This document shows, piece by piece, positions 10,311-21,615 of a DNA stretch of 44,397 nucleotides. Position numbers and translations under genes: made by a program. This DNA comes from Ruminococcus sp. GTDB lineage: Bacteria; Bacillota; Clostridia; Oscillospirales; Acutalibacteraceae. The notes below the pieces were generated by a model. The model made no database searches. It saw nothing but the letters and a program-made list of their open reading frames with translations, and was not told the DNA's origin. Location of the stretch: positions 1 to 44,397 of the forward strand of contig JAFTYK010000029.1 in assembly GCA_017464765.1 (NCBI GenBank), written 5' to 3'. Each line of letters opens with the position of its first letter. Positions within the stretch are counted from its first letter, which is position 1.

Positions 10311-11684
10311 TTATTCTTCTTTGCTTAGTGCTTTTAAAATCATATTAGCGCACATATAAACGTTACCGCCACCCATTGTGAGGACTAAATCGCCTTCTTT
10401 TGCATTTTCGCAAATATACTTTGTGATGTCCTCGAAAGTATCGATACAAACTGAACCATCGACCTTTGCACCTAAATCTGTATTGTAAACACCGTAGGTG
10501 TTTGTTTCCCTAACGGGCAAGATTTCGGAAATGATAGCTTTGTCAGGGATTGAAAGAGCTTTGGCGAAATCGTCGAGTAACATTGCTGTACGTGAGAATG
10601 TGTGTGGCTGGAAAACTGCCCAAACGGTGTTAAAGCCCATATTCATAGCGGCGTTTAAAGTAGTTGTAAGCTCAGTTGGGTGATGAGCAAAGTCGTCAGC
10701 TACTGTGATGCCCTGTGGTTTACCTAAGATTTCAAAACGACGGTGAACGCCTGTGAATTTGTGGAGATTCTCTGCGATTTCCTTTGGAGTTGCACCGAGG
10801 TATGCAGCAGTTGCAGCAGCAGCGAGAGCATTGTAAATATTATGTGTACCCGGAACTACAAGCTCGATTTCGCATAGCTTTTCGCCTTTATGCATAAAAT
10901 CAAAGGTTGAGTAAGCACCCTGTGTTTTTAAGTTCTCAGCGTAATAGTCGTTGGTGTTATTAAAACCGAAAGTGACTTTTGGTAAATCAACGTCTTTTAC
11001 TGCATCAATAGTGTTTTCGTCGTCGCCGTTAATTACTAAAGCACCTGTAGTCTGCTTAGCGAATTTGTTGAAAGAACGTTTGATGTGGTCCAAATCCTTG
11101 AAGTAGTCAAGGTGGTCAGCGTCAACGTTTAAGATAATTGAAATGTACGGAGTAAGCTCCAAGAATGTGTCAACGTATTCACACGCTTCACAAACGATGA
11201 TGTCACTTTGACCAACGTAGGAGTTACCACCTAAGAACGGCAGTTTTCCGCCGATGATTGCTGACGGGTCAAAACCGCTTCCAATAAGAACCTGAGAGAG
11301 CATAGCTGTGGTTGAAGTCTTACCGTGGGTTCCTGAAACTGCGATTGAGCGGTTGTATCTGCGGGTTACTATGCCCAGCATAATAGAACGCTCAAGACAA
11401 GGGATACCCTTTCTCTTAGCTTCAACGAGTTCAGGATTATCTTTCTTTACAGCAGCTGTGTAAACAACTAATTCCTGGTCGGTGATGTTTTCTGCTTTGT
11501 GGCCCATAAAAACAGGAATACCGTAGCCTTTAATTCGCTCTAAAGTATCGCTTTCGTTGCAGTCGGAGCCTGTGAGGATAAAGCCTTCGCTGTGTAAAAT
11601 TTCAGCGAGCGGACACATACCCGAACCGCCGATTCCTATAAAGTGAAGTTTCTTAATATTATCAAGCAAGTTATCATAATTCAT
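10311..11684 (-). CDS. murC: UDP-N-acetylmuramate--L-alanine ligase (MurC)
   Basis: MurC adds L-Ala to UDP-MurNAc with ATP, the first peptide-stem step of peptidoglycan synthesis in the cytoplasm. The 457-residue length is standard. Visible motifs are the N-terminal nucleotide-binding loop FIGIGGSGM (residues 15-23), the ATP P-loop GTHGKTSTT (118-126), the central-domain Asn/His stretch near NVDADHLDYF, and the C-terminal ADDFAHHPTE and FQPHTFSRT segments typical of MurC. Its Cys and His arrangement and the HHPTE motif separate it from MurD/E/F. It is a single gene facing the HtrA-type gene. The start ATG has a GGGG ribosome site about 9 bases upstream. Confidence 0.97.
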   Translation of the reverse strand: MNYDNLLDNIKKLHFIGIGGSGMCPLAEILHSEGFILTGSDCNESDTLERIKGYGIPVFMGHKAENITDQELVVYTAAVKKDNPELVEAKRKGIPCLERSIMLGIVTRRYNRSIAVSGTHGKTSTTAMLSQVLIGSGFDPSAIIGGKLPFLGGNSYVGQSDIIVCEACEYVDTFLELTPYISIILNVDADHLDYFKDLDHIKRSFNKFAKQTTGALVINGDDENTIDAVKDVDLPKVTFGFNNTNDYYAENLKTQGAYSTFDFMHKGEKLCEIELVVPGTHNIYNALAAAATAAYLGATPKEIAENLHKFTGVHRRFEILGKPQGITVADDFAHHPTELTTTLNAAMNMGFNTVWAVFQPHTFSRTAMLLDDFAKALSIPDKAIISEILPVRETNTYGVYNTDLGAKVDGSVCIDTFEDITKYICENAKEGDLVLTMGGGNVYMCANMILKALSKEE

Positions 11685-14615: not shown

Positions 14616-14638
14616 TTTTAATTACGGAAGTGATTTTG

Positions 14639-16321
14639 TTGTATATTTTAAAAAATGCTTTGCGATGTATCAGTCGTTCTAAAGGCCGAAATGTGCTGAT
14701 AGGGATCATCGTGTTTGTTATTGCACTTTCTTCTTGTATCGGACTTTCTATTCGACAGGCTAGCGAAAACGCACGAGAAGAGACTATGAGTGGTCTTTCT
14801 ATTACGGCTACGCTGTCAGTAGATAGGCAGGCGATGATGGAAGAAATGGGTGGTATGAACAGAGGCGAAAATGGCGAGCCTCCTCAAAAACCCGACGGCG
14901 AGTTTGACCGCGATTCTTTCCGTGATATGATGGGCGAAATGCAAACGCTTTCACTTGACGAATATGAAACGTATGCTAAAGCTTCTACTGTAAAGGATTT
15001 TTACTACACAACTACCACCTACTTTAATGGTAGTGACAATTTCGAGGCTGTTAGCAATAGCTCAAGCGATGAGGGTGCTGATACTGAGAATACCCAAACA
15101 GAAACTCAAAATGCTGGTATGCAGTCTATTCCAAATGGAATGGGCGGTATGGATAATATGGGTGGCTTTGGCGGTAGAGGCGGTATGGGTTCAATGAATA
15201 TGGGCGACTTCACTGCTATTGGCTATTGATCAGATATCGCTATGACAGATTTTTCAGATGGAACAACCTCTATTGTAGAGGGAAAAGTTTTTACTGAGGG
15301 TACAGAAAAATTGGAGTGTATCATTTCTTCTGAACTTGCTACTTATAACGAACTGTCAGTTGGTGATGAAATTATACTTTCTAATCCGCAAAATGAGGAA
15401 GAAACATACTCTCTGAGTGTCGTTGGCATTTACAAAAAAGCGTCATCACAGGGTGATATGAGTTCACGTTTTGGTTTTACTATGAGTGACCCTGCAAATG
15501 AGATTTATTTAAGCTATAGCGCTTTAGATAGTATTGCTAAGAAAAGCGAAGAGAAGAATTCAGATGATACTTCTCTTTCTTTGAAAAACACTCTAAATGC
15601 TACATACACTTTTGCTGATGTAAAAGATTATGAAATATTTGAAGAAGAAGTTTACACGCTTGGACTTGACGAAAAATATACTGTTTCTTCTTCTGATATT
15701 ACAGCCTTCGAGAATAGTCTTGTACCACTTGAGACTTTAAGCACAACGGCTGGATATTTTCTCGTTGTAATTCTTTTGATCGGTGCAGTTATCTTGATTG
15801 TACTTAATATATTTAACGTAAGAGAGCGTAAGTACGAAATCGGAGTACTTACTGCTATGGGAATGAAAAAAGGCAAGGTAGCACTTCAGTTTATTGCTGA
15901 GATTTTTATCGTTACTATATGTGCGGTTATCATCGGAGTTATTGTCGGTGGTATATCGGCGGTGCCTGTCACAAATGCTTTGCTCGAAAACCAGAACTCA
16001 GCATCAACAATGCAGTCTCAACAGATAAAAGAGAATTTTGGCAGAGAAAGCAATATGGGTGGTATGACACCTCCTAATATGGGTGAAATTGCACCTGATG
16101 GTATGGGTGATAAAATGCCTGACAGCGGCTCGTTGATGGGAGGTTTCCCTGGTACTCAGGCGATGAGAAATTACGTCACAGAGGTTAATAGTGCGATGAG
16201 TTTTACGGTAGTACTGCAGATGCTACTTATAGCGCTTGGTCTGACACTTGTTTCGGGTGTGGTGTCTGCGCTTTTTGTAATGCGCTACGAACCGCTGAAG
16301 ATTCTTTCAAACAGGGATTAA
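14639..16321 (+). pseudogene. MacB/FtsX-type ABC exporter permease interrupted by one in-frame TGA
   Basis: The frame encodes about 560 residues: an N-terminal membrane segment (~22-42), a large extracytoplasmic domain, and three C-terminal membrane segments (FtsX fold, roughly residues 375-400, 425-450 and 520-545). A single TGA at 15227-15229 splits it. The frame is the same on both sides and the protein similarity reads straight through (TAIGY, stop, SDIAMTDFSDGT). The second half has no ribosome site before its first ATG at 15242, so independent translation looks unlikely. TGA ends other genes here, so recoding is not the default. The extracytoplasmic domain has two Met/Gly-rich stretches. 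The ATPase partner gene follows 12 bases later. I place the start at TTG 14639, eight bases after GGAAG; a GTG at 14630 is too close to it. A sequencing error, a recent nonsense mutation or readthrough are all possible. Confidence 0.8.
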
Positions 16322-17060: not shown

Positions 17061-17780
17061 TTAGCTTTTTATATCATCTGAAAGATTTGCTCTTTTATTC
17101 AGTTCATTAAAAGTTACTTCGTAGCTTAGCTGGTTGTATTTCAGTGAATCATCTGAAAGCTCTTTGTTGAGAATAAGCTCAGAGATATACAAAAGAAAAT
17201 GAGGATTCTTAACTAAAACAGGACCGATGAGATGTGTGCAGAACAAGTTTTTATATCGAACACCTTCGGTCTTAATAATATCTTTCTGACTGTTCTGATA
17301 CAAGACTTCAAACAAAGGAGACTCAACCGAGCTTATAACTCCGCGCTTGTTTCTGTAGCCCACAAGCGGAAGGCTAAGGTCATCAGCTTTAACGATAATA
17401 TCCTCAGAAACGCGATCACCTTCGACTACATCAAAATCGAGTAGTCCTAATCCATTGTGAACCTTGGTATTGTCTTTAATCGTTTTTCCAAGAATTTCGA
17501 AGGCGTTACCTGTAAACAACGCAACCTTGCCGCTGTCTACGTAATTTTTCAGTTGGTCGGAAAATCTTCTGAAATCTTCCAAAGCTACCTTTTGGTTTTT
17601 TTCTGTTGAAGAACCCATAAAAATAAAATCATATTGACTGAAATCAGCGTCTTCGCCTAAGCTGATTTTATCAACAGTACAGGAAACTTCGTTTGCTTGA
17701 GCGAGTCTTTTAATAGCTTCTACGTTAGCATAGTCGCCGTAAAGATTCAAAATATCATGGTATAAATGCAGTATTCTCAT
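17061..17780 (-). CDS. GatD-like class I glutamine amidotransferase lacking catalytic residues
   Basis: This 239-residue protein matches GatD, the glutaminase subunit of lipid II isoglutaminyl synthase (MurT/GatD). GatD supplies ammonia for amidating D-Glu of peptidoglycan. LNLYGDYANVEAI (residues 11-23), the GNAFEILGK segment (91-99) and YKNLFCTHLIGPVLVKN (176-192) align with S. aureus GatD as I recall it. The nucleophile Cys (in ICGGYQ) is Gly91 here, and the catalytic His (in TYLHGP) is Ile185; the equivalent of the Gln-binding Arg also appears changed. The glutaminase is therefore probably dead. The start is ATG 17780 with AAGGTG upstream; it shares one base with the murT-like stop (TAATG), so the two are coupled. 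Its role may be structural, or MurT may use free ammonia. Confidence 0.8.
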   Translation of the reverse strand: MRILHLYHDILNLYGDYANVEAIKRLAQANEVSCTVDKISLGEDADFSQYDFIFMGSSTEKNQKVALEDFRRFSDQLKNYVDSGKVALFTGNAFEILGKTIKDNTKVHNGLGLLDFDVVEGDRVSEDIIVKADDLSLPLVGYRNKRGVISSVESPLFEVLYQNSQKDIIKTEGVRYKNLFCTHLIGPVLVKNPHFLLYISELILNKELSDDSLKYNQLSYEVTFNELNKRANLSDDIKS

Positions 17781-19102
17781 TATTTCACCTTTTTTACACA
17801 AGGATTATTCAGAACTTTCATCTGGTCAGAAAAACATGTTATAACAAAAACAGGTTCTTGTGCTTCGTTATCCATAGATTCTATAGCGCTGTTGATGTCC
17901 TCAAAATGGCTGATTTTTTCCTGAGGGAAGTCACTAAAGCTCAGGCGCACTATAAGGTCGTTGACATATTTTCCTGCGAGAATCAGCTGGTTGACGTTTT
18001 TATCACATAGTAAATTGAAGTCTATATCCCACAGCCACGAAGTGTCACCTGTGAAATACTTTCGGCTGATTTGGTCTACAACTATCATAACGTCACAACT
18101 GCCTTCACTTGAAGTGACAAGTTGGAAGCACTGATTATATGCCGTGCTGTTTTCGTGTTTGGCGATTAAAAGAGTTCCCTCTCGGTTGTTAACACAAAAT
18201 CGGGTCAGTCTGCCGTTTTCTAGTTCATAGTTACTGAGCAGAGAAGCTGTTTTCTCGCTGTCAAAGTTAAGTAGCTTTGAAACAGTGAACGCTGCCAGAG
18301 TATTGTAAAAAGAAAACAGAGAACCTGTCATCAGAGAAATATCATACTGACCATCGATTGTTATCTTTTTATCTTTAAGACTTAATGAAGTGACCGCGCA
18401 ATCAGGGTCGTGGCGGTGGAAACCGCAAGAGTCGCAGGAATAATCGTTGCCCTCTAAGGTCATTTTGGACTTACAAGAAGGGCAGAGTACAGCGTCGTTG
18501 TAGACGTTGCCTACGCGTGTCTGAGTGTTCGGCGCAGAAATTCCATACCACGATGCTTTCTCTGTCTTTTCAGACAGAAGGGAAACGAGAATATCGTCAG
18601 TATTTAGCACCAGATGAGTGCTTGAAGGTATGTGTTCTCTGATAACATCGAAAACTTCTTCTGCGTGTCCGTTTCTGGTGAGCTGATCGCGATACAGGTT
18701 AGTAACTACGCAGTAGGTAGGCTTGATATATTTAAAAATGAATTTAGTATATCTCTCGTCACATTCAATCAAAAGAACATCATGCTTAAGCTTACCGGAT
18801 AAGGTAGCGTTTGTCAGCACGGTCGTTGTGACACCTTCGAGCTGATTGGAACCTTTGTTGTTACAAGCAATCGAAAGGCCGTTGTTTTCAAGAAGATGAT
18901 AAATCATATTTACAGTAGATGATTTTCCGTTGCTTCCTGTTACGGCGATAATTGTTTTTGGTAGTTTAATGTAATTTAGCACATCAGGAAGAATTTTCAG
19001 AGCAATCTGACCGGGTTTACTGGTACCTTTTCCGACAAACTTCCCGACAAAATGTGTGAGCTTTGCTGCGATTATAGAAAAAATCACTTTTATTCTGTTC
19101 AT
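17780..19102 (-). CDS. MurT-like Mur ligase family protein with zinc ribbon
   Basis: This 440-residue Mur-ligase-fold protein resembles MurT, which activates the D-Glu alpha-carboxyl of lipid II with ATP and amidates it using ammonia from GatD. Visible features are the P-loop VTGSNGKSS (54-62), the central TNLYRDQLTRNGH segment, and a four-Cys zinc ribbon (Cys207, 210, 223, 226) that is characteristic of MurT. The C-terminal DTSWLWD (353-359) holds the Asp implicated in catalysis. One MurT motif near the C-terminal domain (NPxGxN in the staphylococcal protein) reads HENSTAYNQ here, so the substrate may differ. The start is ATG 19102 behind AAGGTG; an in-frame TTG seven codons upstream would put the ribosome site inside the gene. 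It has its own strong promoter. Confidence 0.82.
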   Translation of the reverse strand: MNRIKVIFSIIAAKLTHFVGKFVGKGTSKPGQIALKILPDVLNYIKLPKTIIAVTGSNGKSSTVNMIYHLLENNGLSIACNNKGSNQLEGVTTTVLTNATLSGKLKHDVLLIECDERYTKFIFKYIKPTYCVVTNLYRDQLTRNGHAEEVFDVIREHIPSSTHLVLNTDDILVSLLSEKTEKASWYGISAPNTQTRVGNVYNDAVLCPSCKSKMTLEGNDYSCDSCGFHRHDPDCAVTSLSLKDKKITIDGQYDISLMTGSLFSFYNTLAAFTVSKLLNFDSEKTASLLSNYELENGRLTRFCVNNREGTLLIAKHENSTAYNQCFQLVTSSEGSCDVMIVVDQISRKYFTGDTSWLWDIDFNLLCDKNVNQLILAGKYVNDLIVRLSFSDFPQEKISHFEDINSAIESMDNEAQEPVFVITCFSDQMKVLNNPCVKKVK

Positions 19103-19149
19103 TTTTTCACCTTTTTTAAGCAAAAATTATGGTTGTCTTTAACATTAGT

Positions 19150-19312: not shown

Positions 19313-19404
19313 ATAATATGGAGTAGGGTGTGTTCTGTGGTTGTTTCACAGGATTTATATACATCTGATGTAATTTCTTTTAAGGAAAATTGGAGAAAAT
19401 TATT

Positions 19405-20562
19405 ATGTTGGATTCTTATGTTCAGATAGATTTAACAAAGCTTAAAAATAACGCAAGCGCTATAATTAAGAAATATCCTGAGTACAAAAACTACATTGCC
19501 GTTGTTAAGGGTGATGCTTACGGTCACGGTATGAGCGCTGTTAAGGCTTTGTATGATGGTGGAATCAACTATTTTGCTGTATCTTCTCTTGAGGAAGCGA
19601 GAGCGTTGAGAGAAATTTGCAGCGATGTTCCTGTTTTGTATTTAGAGCCTGTGTCAGTTGACAGACTTGAAGAGGCAAAAGAGCTTGATCTGACTTTGGG
19701 AATCTGCGATATGACACACTTAAAGAGTGTACTTGGCGCTAAAACCGAACATAGTTTCAATCTTCACTTGCAGGTTGATGCTGGGTTTAATCGCCTGGGT
19801 TTTAACGATAAGGAAGAAATAAGCCTCGCCCAAAAGATGATAAAAGAATCACAACACCAGTTACAGGGAATATATCAGCACTTTGCGACAGCAGGGATTT
19901 TTGACCCTCATTATGATAACCAGATACGTAGATTCAAAGAGCTGACTTCGCTTATAGATTTAAGCGAAATTCCCATGGTGCATCTGGGAAGCGGAGTGGC
20001 GCTTTTGGCTCACCCTAAAATTGATGTGGCTAATACTACCAGAATGGGACTTTTAGTTTACGGCTACAACGTTGGTCCGCAGTCTTATGGTGGTGGTATT
20101 AAGAATAAAATCAGAGAAATGCGTGACAAGTACTATCAGAAAAAGTATAATCTCACACAAACTATCAAAGATGTAGAGATTGAGCTTTCTCCTGCAATGG
20201 AGTACAAGTGCCGTATACTTCAGCTCAAAAGGGTGAAGGCTGGGGAGTTTGTCGGCTACAATGCATCGTATAAAGCAGAAAGCGACATAACGCTTGCTGT
20301 TTTACCTGTCGGATATAACAACGGTATCGGACACGCGAATTTTTCAAGATGTGTTCAGATAGGGGAAAAGCTCTATCCTGTTGTTGGTGAGATTGGTATG
20401 AATATGTGCGCGGTTAAGGTGGACGAAAGCGTGAAAATCACTGACGAGGTTACACTTCTGGGTAAGAAAATCACGCTCGGAATGTTCTGCAGAGGAGCTA
20501 ATTTAGGCTTAGCTGAGGCACTTGTTAGTATCGGCAAAAACAACGAAAGAATTTATATTTAA
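19405..20562 (+). CDS. alr: Alanine racemase
   Basis: Alr interconverts L- and D-alanine with pyridoxal phosphate and supplies D-Ala for the cell wall. The 385-residue protein has the PLP Lys35 in VVKGDAYGHG, DAGFNRLGF around residue 130, the catalytic Tyr285 in VGYNASY, VGYNNGI, and IGMNMCAV for the usual CMDQ region. Here Met-Asn-Met replaces Met-Asp-Gln, a mild variation. An insertion of about 20 charged residues (after YGGGIKNKIREM) is unusual. The start is ATG 19405 with GGAG nine bases upstream; an in-frame TTG 15 bases earlier overlaps that site. The ATP-grasp gene follows 24 bases later, so the two probably form an operon. It may be the general alr or a dedicated one. Confidence 0.9.
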   Translation: MLDSYVQIDLTKLKNNASAIIKKYPEYKNYIAVVKGDAYGHGMSAVKALYDGGINYFAVSSLEEARALREICSDVPVLYLEPVSVDRLEEAKELDLTLGICDMTHLKSVLGAKTEHSFNLHLQVDAGFNRLGFNDKEEISLAQKMIKESQHQLQGIYQHFATAGIFDPHYDNQIRRFKELTSLIDLSEIPMVHLGSGVALLAHPKIDVANTTRMGLLVYGYNVGPQSYGGGIKNKIREMRDKYYQKKYNLTQTIKDVEIELSPAMEYKCRILQLKRVKAGEFVGYNASYKAESDITLAVLPVGYNNGIGHANFSRCVQIGEKLYPVVGEIGMNMCAVKVDESVKITDEVTLLGKKITLGMFCRGANLGLAEALVSIGKNNERIYI

Positions 20563-20586: not shown

Positions 20587-21615
20587 ATGGCAATGTCAGT
20601 AGGTAAGTGGTTACTGAATAAATTCAAGGATATCAACCACGACAGAATGAACAAGCACATCGAGATTATCAGTAAGAATTCGGGAAAGAGTAAGTTTTAT
20701 GTTCTGTGCAGTATCGGCTGGAACTTTTTAACTCAGGGTACAGGTTACACAGATTATTTCCGTGGTAACTTTATTGAGCTTACACGTTCTGAAAAAAAGA
20801 CTTTCGCTACCGCGAAGCGTTTTTACAGACTTCTTGAGTATATGAATGATGAACAGTATAGCATTGTGCTTTCGGACAAGCTTATCTTCAACGAGGTTTT
20901 CAAGGATTACTTAAAGCGTGATTTCATTAATCTTCGAAAAAGCACTGCGACAGATTTTGAGAACTTCTTGAGCGACAAAACTACAGTTTTCGCCAAGGAA
21001 GTAAACGGTGAAGGCGGTCACGGTATCAGCAAAATCAAGGTGGCTGAAATAAAGGACGTCGAAGCTTTATACAATAAGCTTGTTGAGAATAATCAGCTTT
21101 TGGTCGAGGACGCAATTATTCAGCACAACGACTTAAATCAGGTTAACCCTCACGTTGTAAACTCATTTCGAATCGTTACTGTATACAAGGACGGCAAGGC
21201 TAAGGTTATTAGCAATGCGCTTAGAATCAACCAGGACGAAAGTGATGTTATCGGCTGTACAAACGACCTTTACTTCAGTTTAGGTGCTGATGGTAAAATT
21301 GACAGTAATGTTATCGATGACTATGGTGATGTTTACGATACTCACCCGATGACAGGTAAGAAGTTTAAGGACGTTTACATTAACGGTGTTGACGAAGCTT
21401 TCAGAATGTGCGAAGAAGCACATTTAAGACTTCCTCAGTGCAGATATATCGGCTGGGATATTGCTTTTTCAGTTAATGGTCCTGTTATGGTTGAGGGTAA
21501 CGATTACCCCGGATACGGTATCTTGCAGTTTTATAAGCTCAAGGACAAACGTACAGGTCATCTTAAAGAAGTTGCCGATGTACTCGGCGATGAATTCAAT
21601 CAGATTAAGCTTTAA
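20587..21615 (+). CDS. Sugar-transfer-associated ATP-grasp family protein
   Basis: This 342-residue soluble protein has an ATP-grasp architecture: the Lys/Gly-rich loop FAKEVNGEGGHGISKI (~residues 138-153) that covers ATP, QLLVEDAIIQH (~170-180) for the nucleotide hinge, VNSFRIVTVY, and GWDIAFSVNGPVMVEGN (~290-306) with the Glu and Asn that bind Mg2+. This last pattern matches PF14397, ATP-grasp enzymes found in polysaccharide and cell-wall loci. Family members join a carboxylate to an amine or other nucleophile via an acyl phosphate, but their products are poorly known. It lies just downstream of alr with a GAGGG ribosome site, so D-alanine could be a substrate; that is inference. Confidence 0.82.
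   Translation: MAMSVGKWLLNKFKDINHDRMNKHIEIISKNSGKSKFYVLCSIGWNFLTQGTGYTDYFRGNFIELTRSEKKTFATAKRFYRLLEYMNDEQYSIVLSDKLIFNEVFKDYLKRDFINLRKSTATDFENFLSDKTTVFAKEVNGEGGHGISKIKVAEIKDVEALYNKLVENNQLLVEDAIIQHNDLNQVNPHVVNSFRIVTVYKDGKAKVISNALRINQDESDVIGCTNDLYFSLGADGKIDSNVIDDYGDVYDTHPMTGKKFKDVYINGVDEAFRMCEEAHLRLPQCRYIGWDIAFSVNGPVMVEGNDYPGYGILQFYKLKDKRTGHLKEVADVLGDEFNQIKL

Follow-up and report, generated by a model that had tools for sequence, protein, structure and literature searches.

The window analysed here is a 44,397-bp stretch from a 1.5-Mb, 67% complete assembly of a genus to which Ruminococcus bromii is putatively assigned. A gatD-like gene for a protein of 239 aa (17061..17780, minus strand), recognised from its open reading frame, Pfam and NCBIfam profiles and alignment, lacks the codons for the catalytic Cys and His. 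In the same operon lies its upstream partner, a murT-like gene (17780..19102, minus strand) that encodes 440 aa from an ATG, or 447 aa from an alternative TTG start at 19123, and matches the MurT_C profile with 82.1 bits (cut-off 25). The ATG of the gatD-like gene at 17780 overlaps the murT stop codon by one base (TAATG), and both reading frames are intact. The divergent neighbour is an alanine racemase gene (19390..20562, plus strand), identified by profile matches and neighbourhood comparison, and its linkage to murT is common to the window, to L061/L099 (one genome) and to L104. Elsewhere in the window, an FtsX-like permease gene (14630-16321) is seemingly split by an in-frame TGA at 15227-15229 into two ORFs in one frame, and a three-domain Mur ligase is encoded on the minus strand at 10311-11684, approximately 5.4 kb from the gatD-like gene.

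The GatD-like protein belongs to the GATase_3 family (PF07685; 57.8 bits, cut-off 27). Against the NCBIfam equivalogs applied to the pair (NF045636 and NF045635), it scores 110.5 bits with a GatD cut-off of 400, and the MurT-like protein scores 197.7 bits with a MurT cut-off of 800. The GatD cut-off is narrow and says little, because it was reached by none of 293 genomes, including those whose pairs possess both Cys and His. A phmmer search relates the protein to the solved chains 6fqb, 5n9m, 6gs2 and 9sq9 with E values of 8.6e-25 to 6e-24. In the alignment with these chains, GNAFE stands opposite the CGG(F/Y)Q elbow, which places Gly91 (codon 17508..17510, minus strand) in the column of the nucleophile, Cys94 of S. 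aureus GatD; likewise, Ile185 of HLIGP (codon 17226..17228, minus strand) stands opposite the His of YLHGP/YFHGP, the S. aureus His189 site. The initial annotation had named exactly these two residues, and its numbering is confirmed. The Cys nucleophile expected of a GATase_3 class I glutamine amidotransferase is thus replaced by Gly91. Arg123 (codon 17412..17414, minus strand) is kept at the site of S. aureus Arg128, to which glutamine capture is ascribed in the accessible part of PMC5871853.

These features are shared by the clade to which the window belongs, designated type A (the subtype labels A, A-prime, B and C were coined in this analysis). Among 102 distinct type A GatDs examined, one of them incomplete, Gly occupies the Cys94 column in 101/101 readable sequences, Arg123 is kept in the same 101/101, and His never occurs at the His189 column. 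The clade-wide pattern, obtained by aligning homologues next to murT in Clostridia, bears out the earlier suggestion that the glutaminase residues were lost under continued selection. The initial annotation had also allowed for a Cys and His elsewhere in the same active site, and the alignment speaks against such a shift, as no column of the 102 distinct rows is an invariant Cys or His. Cys34 of the window protein is Cys in 11 of the 102 rows and Cys181 in 3. His183 precedes the lost His by two residues and is found in 76/102 type A rows, against Tyr in 27/30 rows with a canonical MurT; it might occupy the site as a shifted active-site His, but no Cys accompanies it. His5, present in 86/102 type A GatDs, also occurs in canonical GatD. 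An NKCS motif provides a Cys in 75/102 type A rows, and this Cys was rejected as a replacement nucleophile, the window protein departing from the clade with NKRG (Arg146). According to the accessible parts of the S. aureus studies, the GatD variants C94A, H189A and R128A have no glutaminase activity (PMC5871853), and C94G or C94S abolishes glutamine-dependent amidation (PMC3266927, PMC6113224). From the sequence together with these mutants, the GatD-like protein is very likely not a glutaminase.

The MurT-like partner, whose own departure from the canonical motifs the initial annotation overlooked, exceeds the Pfam cut-offs for PF08245 and PF08353 and possesses the P-loop (GSNGKSS, 18917..18937, minus strand) and the four Cys of the CxxC...CxxC zinc ribbon (18425..18484, minus strand); no N-terminal Mur_ligase domain was found in it with Pfam. 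In common with MurT/GatD of S. aureus and S. pneumoniae, the window pair has the two-gene operon, the family matches, the P-loop, the acceptor Asn, the Asp-Glu pair, the zinc ribbon, the hinge Arg, the GatD Arg128 and an equivalent of MurT Asp349. In contrast to those systems, the GatD nucleophile Cys and the His are lost and the KNPAG, DNxADG, DR(Y/F)GE and NYTA-like loops are replaced. All four replacements were located on the minus strand by MurT alignment. KNPAG has become KHENS (18146..18160) with a two-residue insert, HE, and DNxADG has become SRKY (18056..18067) within ISRKYFT; TRNGH (18665..18679) forms the end of the interface loop in place of DR(Y/F)GE, and TCFSD (17825..17839) near the C terminus stands for the NYTA-like loop.

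The kept residues and the replacements are both fixed in the clade. Lys60 of the P-loop, Asn86, Asp115, Glu116, Arg298 and the four zinc Cys are invariant in the readable type A MurT rows and occur in nearly all canonical rows, and the S. pneumoniae equivalents of the P-loop Lys, Asn86, Asp115-Glu116 and Arg298 are described in the accessible text of PMC6085368 as essential or inferred for ATP or acceptor. On this alignment, MurT retains the residues expected to bind ATP, magnesium and the acceptor carboxylate. The HE insert is present in 102/102 type A rows and is a gap in 30/30 canonical-MurT rows; Arg347 and Asp426 each occur in 102/102 type A rows versus 0/30; and site 348 is Lys or Arg in 102/102 versus Asp in 30/30. 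In the interface loop, the Thr of TRNGH is found in 96/102 type A rows versus Asp in 30/30 canonical rows, and the His in 100/102 versus Glu in 28/30. The equivalent of Asp349, the third residue of the putative triad, is Asp353 in the window and, over the 102 type A rows, Asp in 49, Glu in 52 and Ala in 1.

The C-terminal domain of MurT contains the majority of the new fixed motifs. The rewriting is not confined to this domain, as had been supposed early on, since the middle domain has a changed interface loop. Mur ligases are ATP-dependent, and the incoming amino acid is bound by their C-terminal domain. The window MurT shares with MurC-MurF the ATP-dependent ligation and a profile match to MurE; in contrast to them, it lacks the N-terminal Mur_ligase domain by Pfam and has a GatD subunit. 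In a loose profile alignment, KHENS falls on the DYAHTPD loop of MurE and SRKY falls near its GGDRD..KRP motif, which is a lead, not proof. The MurT loops that changed are expected to lie opposite the incoming nucleophile and at the contact with GatD. The accessible text of PMC6085368 places the S. pneumoniae interface loop at the GatD interface, where it is proposed to form a wall of the ammonia channel, and reports only minor effects for D139A and E143A, which affect two of the sites changed in type A.

A search of the genus and order covered 59 genomes and gave 26 matches. Seventeen of these, the window and 16 relatives, constitute alignment A1, in which the Cys94 column is Gly and the His189 column is never His; five keep Cys and His (G015, G019, G022, G033 and G044), two are of a more distant kind lacking both residues and two are fragments. 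Both residues are also missing from 80 loci of named genomes, the best of at least 594 stretches (581 relatives) in a scan with two patterns. One pattern contains TGN, which favours Gly, and one of the two can fit canonical GatD as well; the His189 column lies outside both patterns and is never His in these 80. A class-level survey of 293 genomes gave a match in 152, and, in the part of which sequences were read, confirmed a Cys/His-less GatD with a rewritten MurT (one whose canonical motifs are replaced) in 32 of the 293 and a dead GatD with a canonical MurT in four. An order-level survey around G350 covered 118 genomes, 55 of them with MurT_C. In the class and order surveys, poor canonical scorers were fetched on purpose together with some canonical pairs.

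In total, 182 pairs were tabulated, of which 175 are distinct (145 rewritten, 22 with Cys and His and 8 mixed); the sample was chosen rather than random, some genomes enter twice through two collections, and GatD rows lacking a MurT partner (G039 and the second copy of G170) were left out. A rewritten MurT occurs in 152 of the 182 pairs, and neither Cys nor His is present in their 151 readable GatDs, that of G034 ending before the active site. Cys and His together with a canonical MurT are found in 22 pairs, and the eight mixed pairs all have a canonical MurT: four lost both residues, two lost only the Cys and two carry Asp for the His. Consequently, no pair among the 151 readable combines Cys or His with a rewritten MurT. 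The four pairs that lost both residues come from one genus (L198, L276, L277 and L278 in G110, G155, G196 and G213) and their MurTs keep KNPAG and NDxxSDG. L274 and L275 (G134 and G177) keep the GatD Cys and carry Asp at the His189 site (TYLDGP and TYMDGP) beside a canonical MurT.

The loop motifs differ between the rewritten subtypes: A-prime has KNENS or KNETP, B has mostly KQENPET/DT and C is heterogeneous. In a MurT tree built from the region before the C-terminal domain, with 16 type A rows and with G400 and G015 left out on purpose, rewritten and canonical sequences are split by one branch with one change, whose SH-aLRT support of 90 falls below the mark of 95. In a MurT-region tree with 29 type A rows, type A forms one side of a branch (support 99) and the Cys state changes four times. 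Judged from these sequence data, the pair is a representative of a conserved and widespread MurT/pseudo-GatD subfamily.

Within the genus, 20/36 genomes possess MurT_C: type A occurs in 15 (in one alongside type C, and in one with an incomplete GatD), four have a canonical pair and one has type C only. The other 16 of the 36, several of them 98-100% complete, gave no MurT_C match, so that the modification is dispensable in the genus. Of the 16 genomes that were reached via type A or A-prime loci, 14 contain a single MurT_C gene, whereas G348 and G349 contain three each; none has a canonical MurT by motif. The possibility of a second standard gatD/murT pair, raised by the initial annotation, finds no counterpart in the window's assembly, which is 67% complete. 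Among genomes whose copies were read, apart from the second copies of G070 and G094, a canonical pair and a rewritten copy occur together only in G341 and G512. The three MurT/GatD pairs in G348 (L133, L267 and L268) and in G349 (L144, L269 and L270), one type A and two type C in each, all lack Cys and His, and successive or different additions are possible.

Clustering of ORFs at the window and 24 further loci, some of them canonical or type C, revealed no constant type A neighbour besides murT and gatD, and these two genes were again the only constant ones at the window and 100 further loci. A recurrent gene near some rewritten pairs encodes an ATPgrasp_ST protein (PF14397 by Pfam; 20587..21615, plus strand, in the window). 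The distance between an ATPgrasp_ST-like gene and the rewritten murT is at most 1.5 kb in five type A genomes (the window, G023 and those of L097, L103 and L104) and five type C genomes (G141, G473, G348, G349 and G480), with such genes on both sides of murT in G473; PF14397 identity was checked for the window, L349, L351 and L352. In a scan of 197 murT-bearing loci, many of them overlapping or with short flanks, one weak match was found near a canonical pair. The ATPgrasp_ST gene overlaps murT in L349 and is present on both sides of the pair in L351. As a speculation, the ATPgrasp_ST-like protein could add a second residue.

The sister subtype B offers a link to wall chemistry. Its family was surveyed in 40 genomes, 36 of them with MurT_C. 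Weak MurT_C matches of 56-67 bits, one per genome, characterise 28 genomes (genus-level groups g100, g203, g174, g144 and g202), and strong matches of 125-141 bits characterise eight (groups g204, g205 and g200), two of which, G341 and G512, carry a second, type B-like copy; this divergent second pair (L395 and L396, with KQENAETLQS) occurs beside the canonical pair in the genome. Thirty loci and the two second copies were read; six weak places lie outside this set, of which G214 and G231 were read separately. The weak matches read are type B, with a GatD lacking Cys and His where readable, and the strong matches read have a canonical MurT and a GatD with both residues. E. limosum (G501) and A. 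woodii (G136) are putatively among the type B hosts, and in the E. limosum-like G501, a putative host name, the type B pair is the sole MurT/GatD of the genome. DNPA is the MurE loop of G231 and of those g100 and g203 genomes that were read; the loop is of another form in g174 and g202 and is DNSR in the canonical-pair genomes of this family. Some genomes with a type B or C pair have a MurE with the unusual loop EDPS or EDPG (L411, L266 and L265), which, as far as loop sequence can indicate, points to non-standard residues at stem position 3.

An ornithine-racemase-like protein was found in 13/13 type B genomes tested versus 0/6 canonical-pair genomes of the same family, with NF040742 at E values of at most 1.2e-120, below the curated cut-off; in this count, G505 is typed by score only and G341, among the canonical six, also has a type B-like copy. 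Ornithine racemase (Orr) can also serve ornithine catabolism. The type B gatD adjoins a glmM-like wall-precursor gene, named by eye, in G231 and G281 and lies one gene away from it in G136, G214 and G310. We take the group B wall of E. limosum and A. woodii to mean a diamino acid on the D-Glu alpha-carboxyl, and the A. woodii wall to be of group B. The accessible parts of two papers report Ala, Glu, Lys, Orn and Ser in the wall of E. limosum ATCC 8486 (PMC4791908) and list Eubacterium with the B 2alpha wall type in a review table (PMC11382707). A type B ligase for D-Orn or D-Lys on D-Glu fits these observations, which amount to a correlation in one family; the racemase, MurE and MurT of type B may also reflect joint inheritance. 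In the MurT tree, type A falls with type B on the rewritten side, but it has neither the DNPA MurE nor the racemase. The MurE loop of the window genus is DNSR in genomes with a variant pair, a canonical pair or none (14 genomes read), and no ornithine-racemase-like gene was found in any of seven of its genomes. A link of type A to the amino acid at stem position 3 was accordingly rejected, and the type B argument reaches type A only through kinship. No chemistry of any type A host wall was found in the literature, and Table 1 of PMC11382707, in its accessible part, is blank for Ruminococcus.

The likeliest interpretation of the pair is that MurT uses a new nucleophile. With about an even chance of being right, we propose that the pseudo-GatD is structural and that the group which MurT attaches to D-Glu is not ammonia derived from glutamine but a different amine, probably an amino acid. 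In the proposed mechanism, MurT would act as an ATP-dependent ligase of the Mur type, in complex with GatD as a pseudo-glutaminase. The carboxylate that MurT activates would belong to a peptidoglycan precursor and would most likely be the D-Glu alpha-carboxyl on lipid I/II. The amine serving as nucleophile would most likely be an amino acid, bound, as other Mur ligases bind theirs, by the C-terminal domain, here through the rewritten loops. GatD may persist because MurT needs it physically, and its Arg123, together with the acidic Glu60 and Glu95, may bind the amino acid without hydrolysis. Mammalian CPS1 similarly has a glutaminase-type domain that lost its Cys and is still part of the enzyme, although CPS1, unlike the proposed pair, uses ammonia and is an unrelated synthetase. 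An analogy is also provided by S. aureus, where, in the accessible part of PMC3266927, GatD is needed for MurT activity and none of the nitrogen donors tried supports activity of MurT by itself. The natural Cys-to-Gly change reproduces the C94G mutant described there and would, by this analogy, leave a non-hydrolysing but required subunit; in contrast to the natural protein, the mutant retains His189 and a canonical MurT (PMC3266927).

The initial annotation had listed free ammonia, a structural subunit and a different bond without choosing among them. The latter two are now favoured together, and free ammonia is less favoured. A MurT that makes D-isoglutamine from ambient ammonia with GatD only as a scaffold is an unlikely, though serious, alternative for type A. 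The S. aureus MurT with GatD C94G, whose glutamine-dependent activity is lost, still uses NH3 at pH 8.5, but at pH 7.5 neither the wild-type nor the C94G complex uses NH3 or NH4Cl (both from the accessible part of PMC3266927). The retention of Asp or Glu at the Asp349 equivalent in 101/102 type A rows is compatible with ammonia chemistry, but the equally invariant new type A motifs in place of KNPAG, DNxADG and the interface loop, and the other replacement motifs of A-prime, B and C, are left unexplained by it. The explanation suits G110, G155, G196 and G213, which combine a dead GatD with canonical MurT loops as it predicts for them and are candidates for plain free-ammonia lipid II amidases. 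Since the MurT loops of these four genomes are untouched, glutaminase loss alone does not drive MurT rewriting.

A different acceptor, such as meso-DAP, a wall polymer or a soluble metabolite, with the MurT resemblance reflecting only ancestry, appears improbable. The DN-Asp-rich motif of S. aureus lies close to the modelled MurE product in the accessible part of PMC6113224, so that loss of the motif could reflect a different acceptor. The constancy of murT and gatD alone at type A loci agrees with this possibility, as do the three MurT-like genes in each of G348 and G349, whose copies may therefore differ in substrate; yet the acceptor-side Asn86 and Asp115-Glu116 are as invariant as in canonical MurT, and type B lies beside or one gene from the by-eye-named glmM-like gene in five genomes. 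That the pair is merely losing its function is scarcely credible. Its patchy presence in the genus (20/36 genomes) and the departure of the window GatD from NKCS to NKRG would agree with decay, but this is largely contradicted by conservation, the new motifs being fixed across many genera (102 distinct type A pairs) and the overlapping window frames being intact.

Extending the preferred reading, in which MurT joins an amino acid to D-Glu beside a structural pseudo-GatD, we tentatively suggest, at somewhat less than an even chance, that the MurT/pseudo-GatD pairs make up a superfamily not recognised so far, with each of the subtypes A, A-prime, B and C adding a particular amino acid to the D-Glu alpha-carboxyl of lipid-linked precursors. 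In Eubacterium and Acetobacterium, type B would be the as yet unassigned ligase for the first step of the (2-4) bridge between D-Glu and D-Ala in group B walls. The product of type A would be a D-Glu-substituted wall of a kind not yet described, in R. bromii-like bacteria and further gut Clostridia. In the accessible open-access literature, neither a named enzyme for the bridge amino acid on D-Glu nor a report of GatD without Cys as a natural family was found. An annotation as isoglutaminyl synthase would assign the wrong reaction for many gut bacteria. If the ligase reading is true, the pair provides a candidate gene for the bridge amino acid on D-Glu in group B peptidoglycan. D-Glu is a residue of muramyl dipeptide, and the ligase reading predicts a modified D-Glu in R. 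bromii-like and Flavonifractor-like bacteria.
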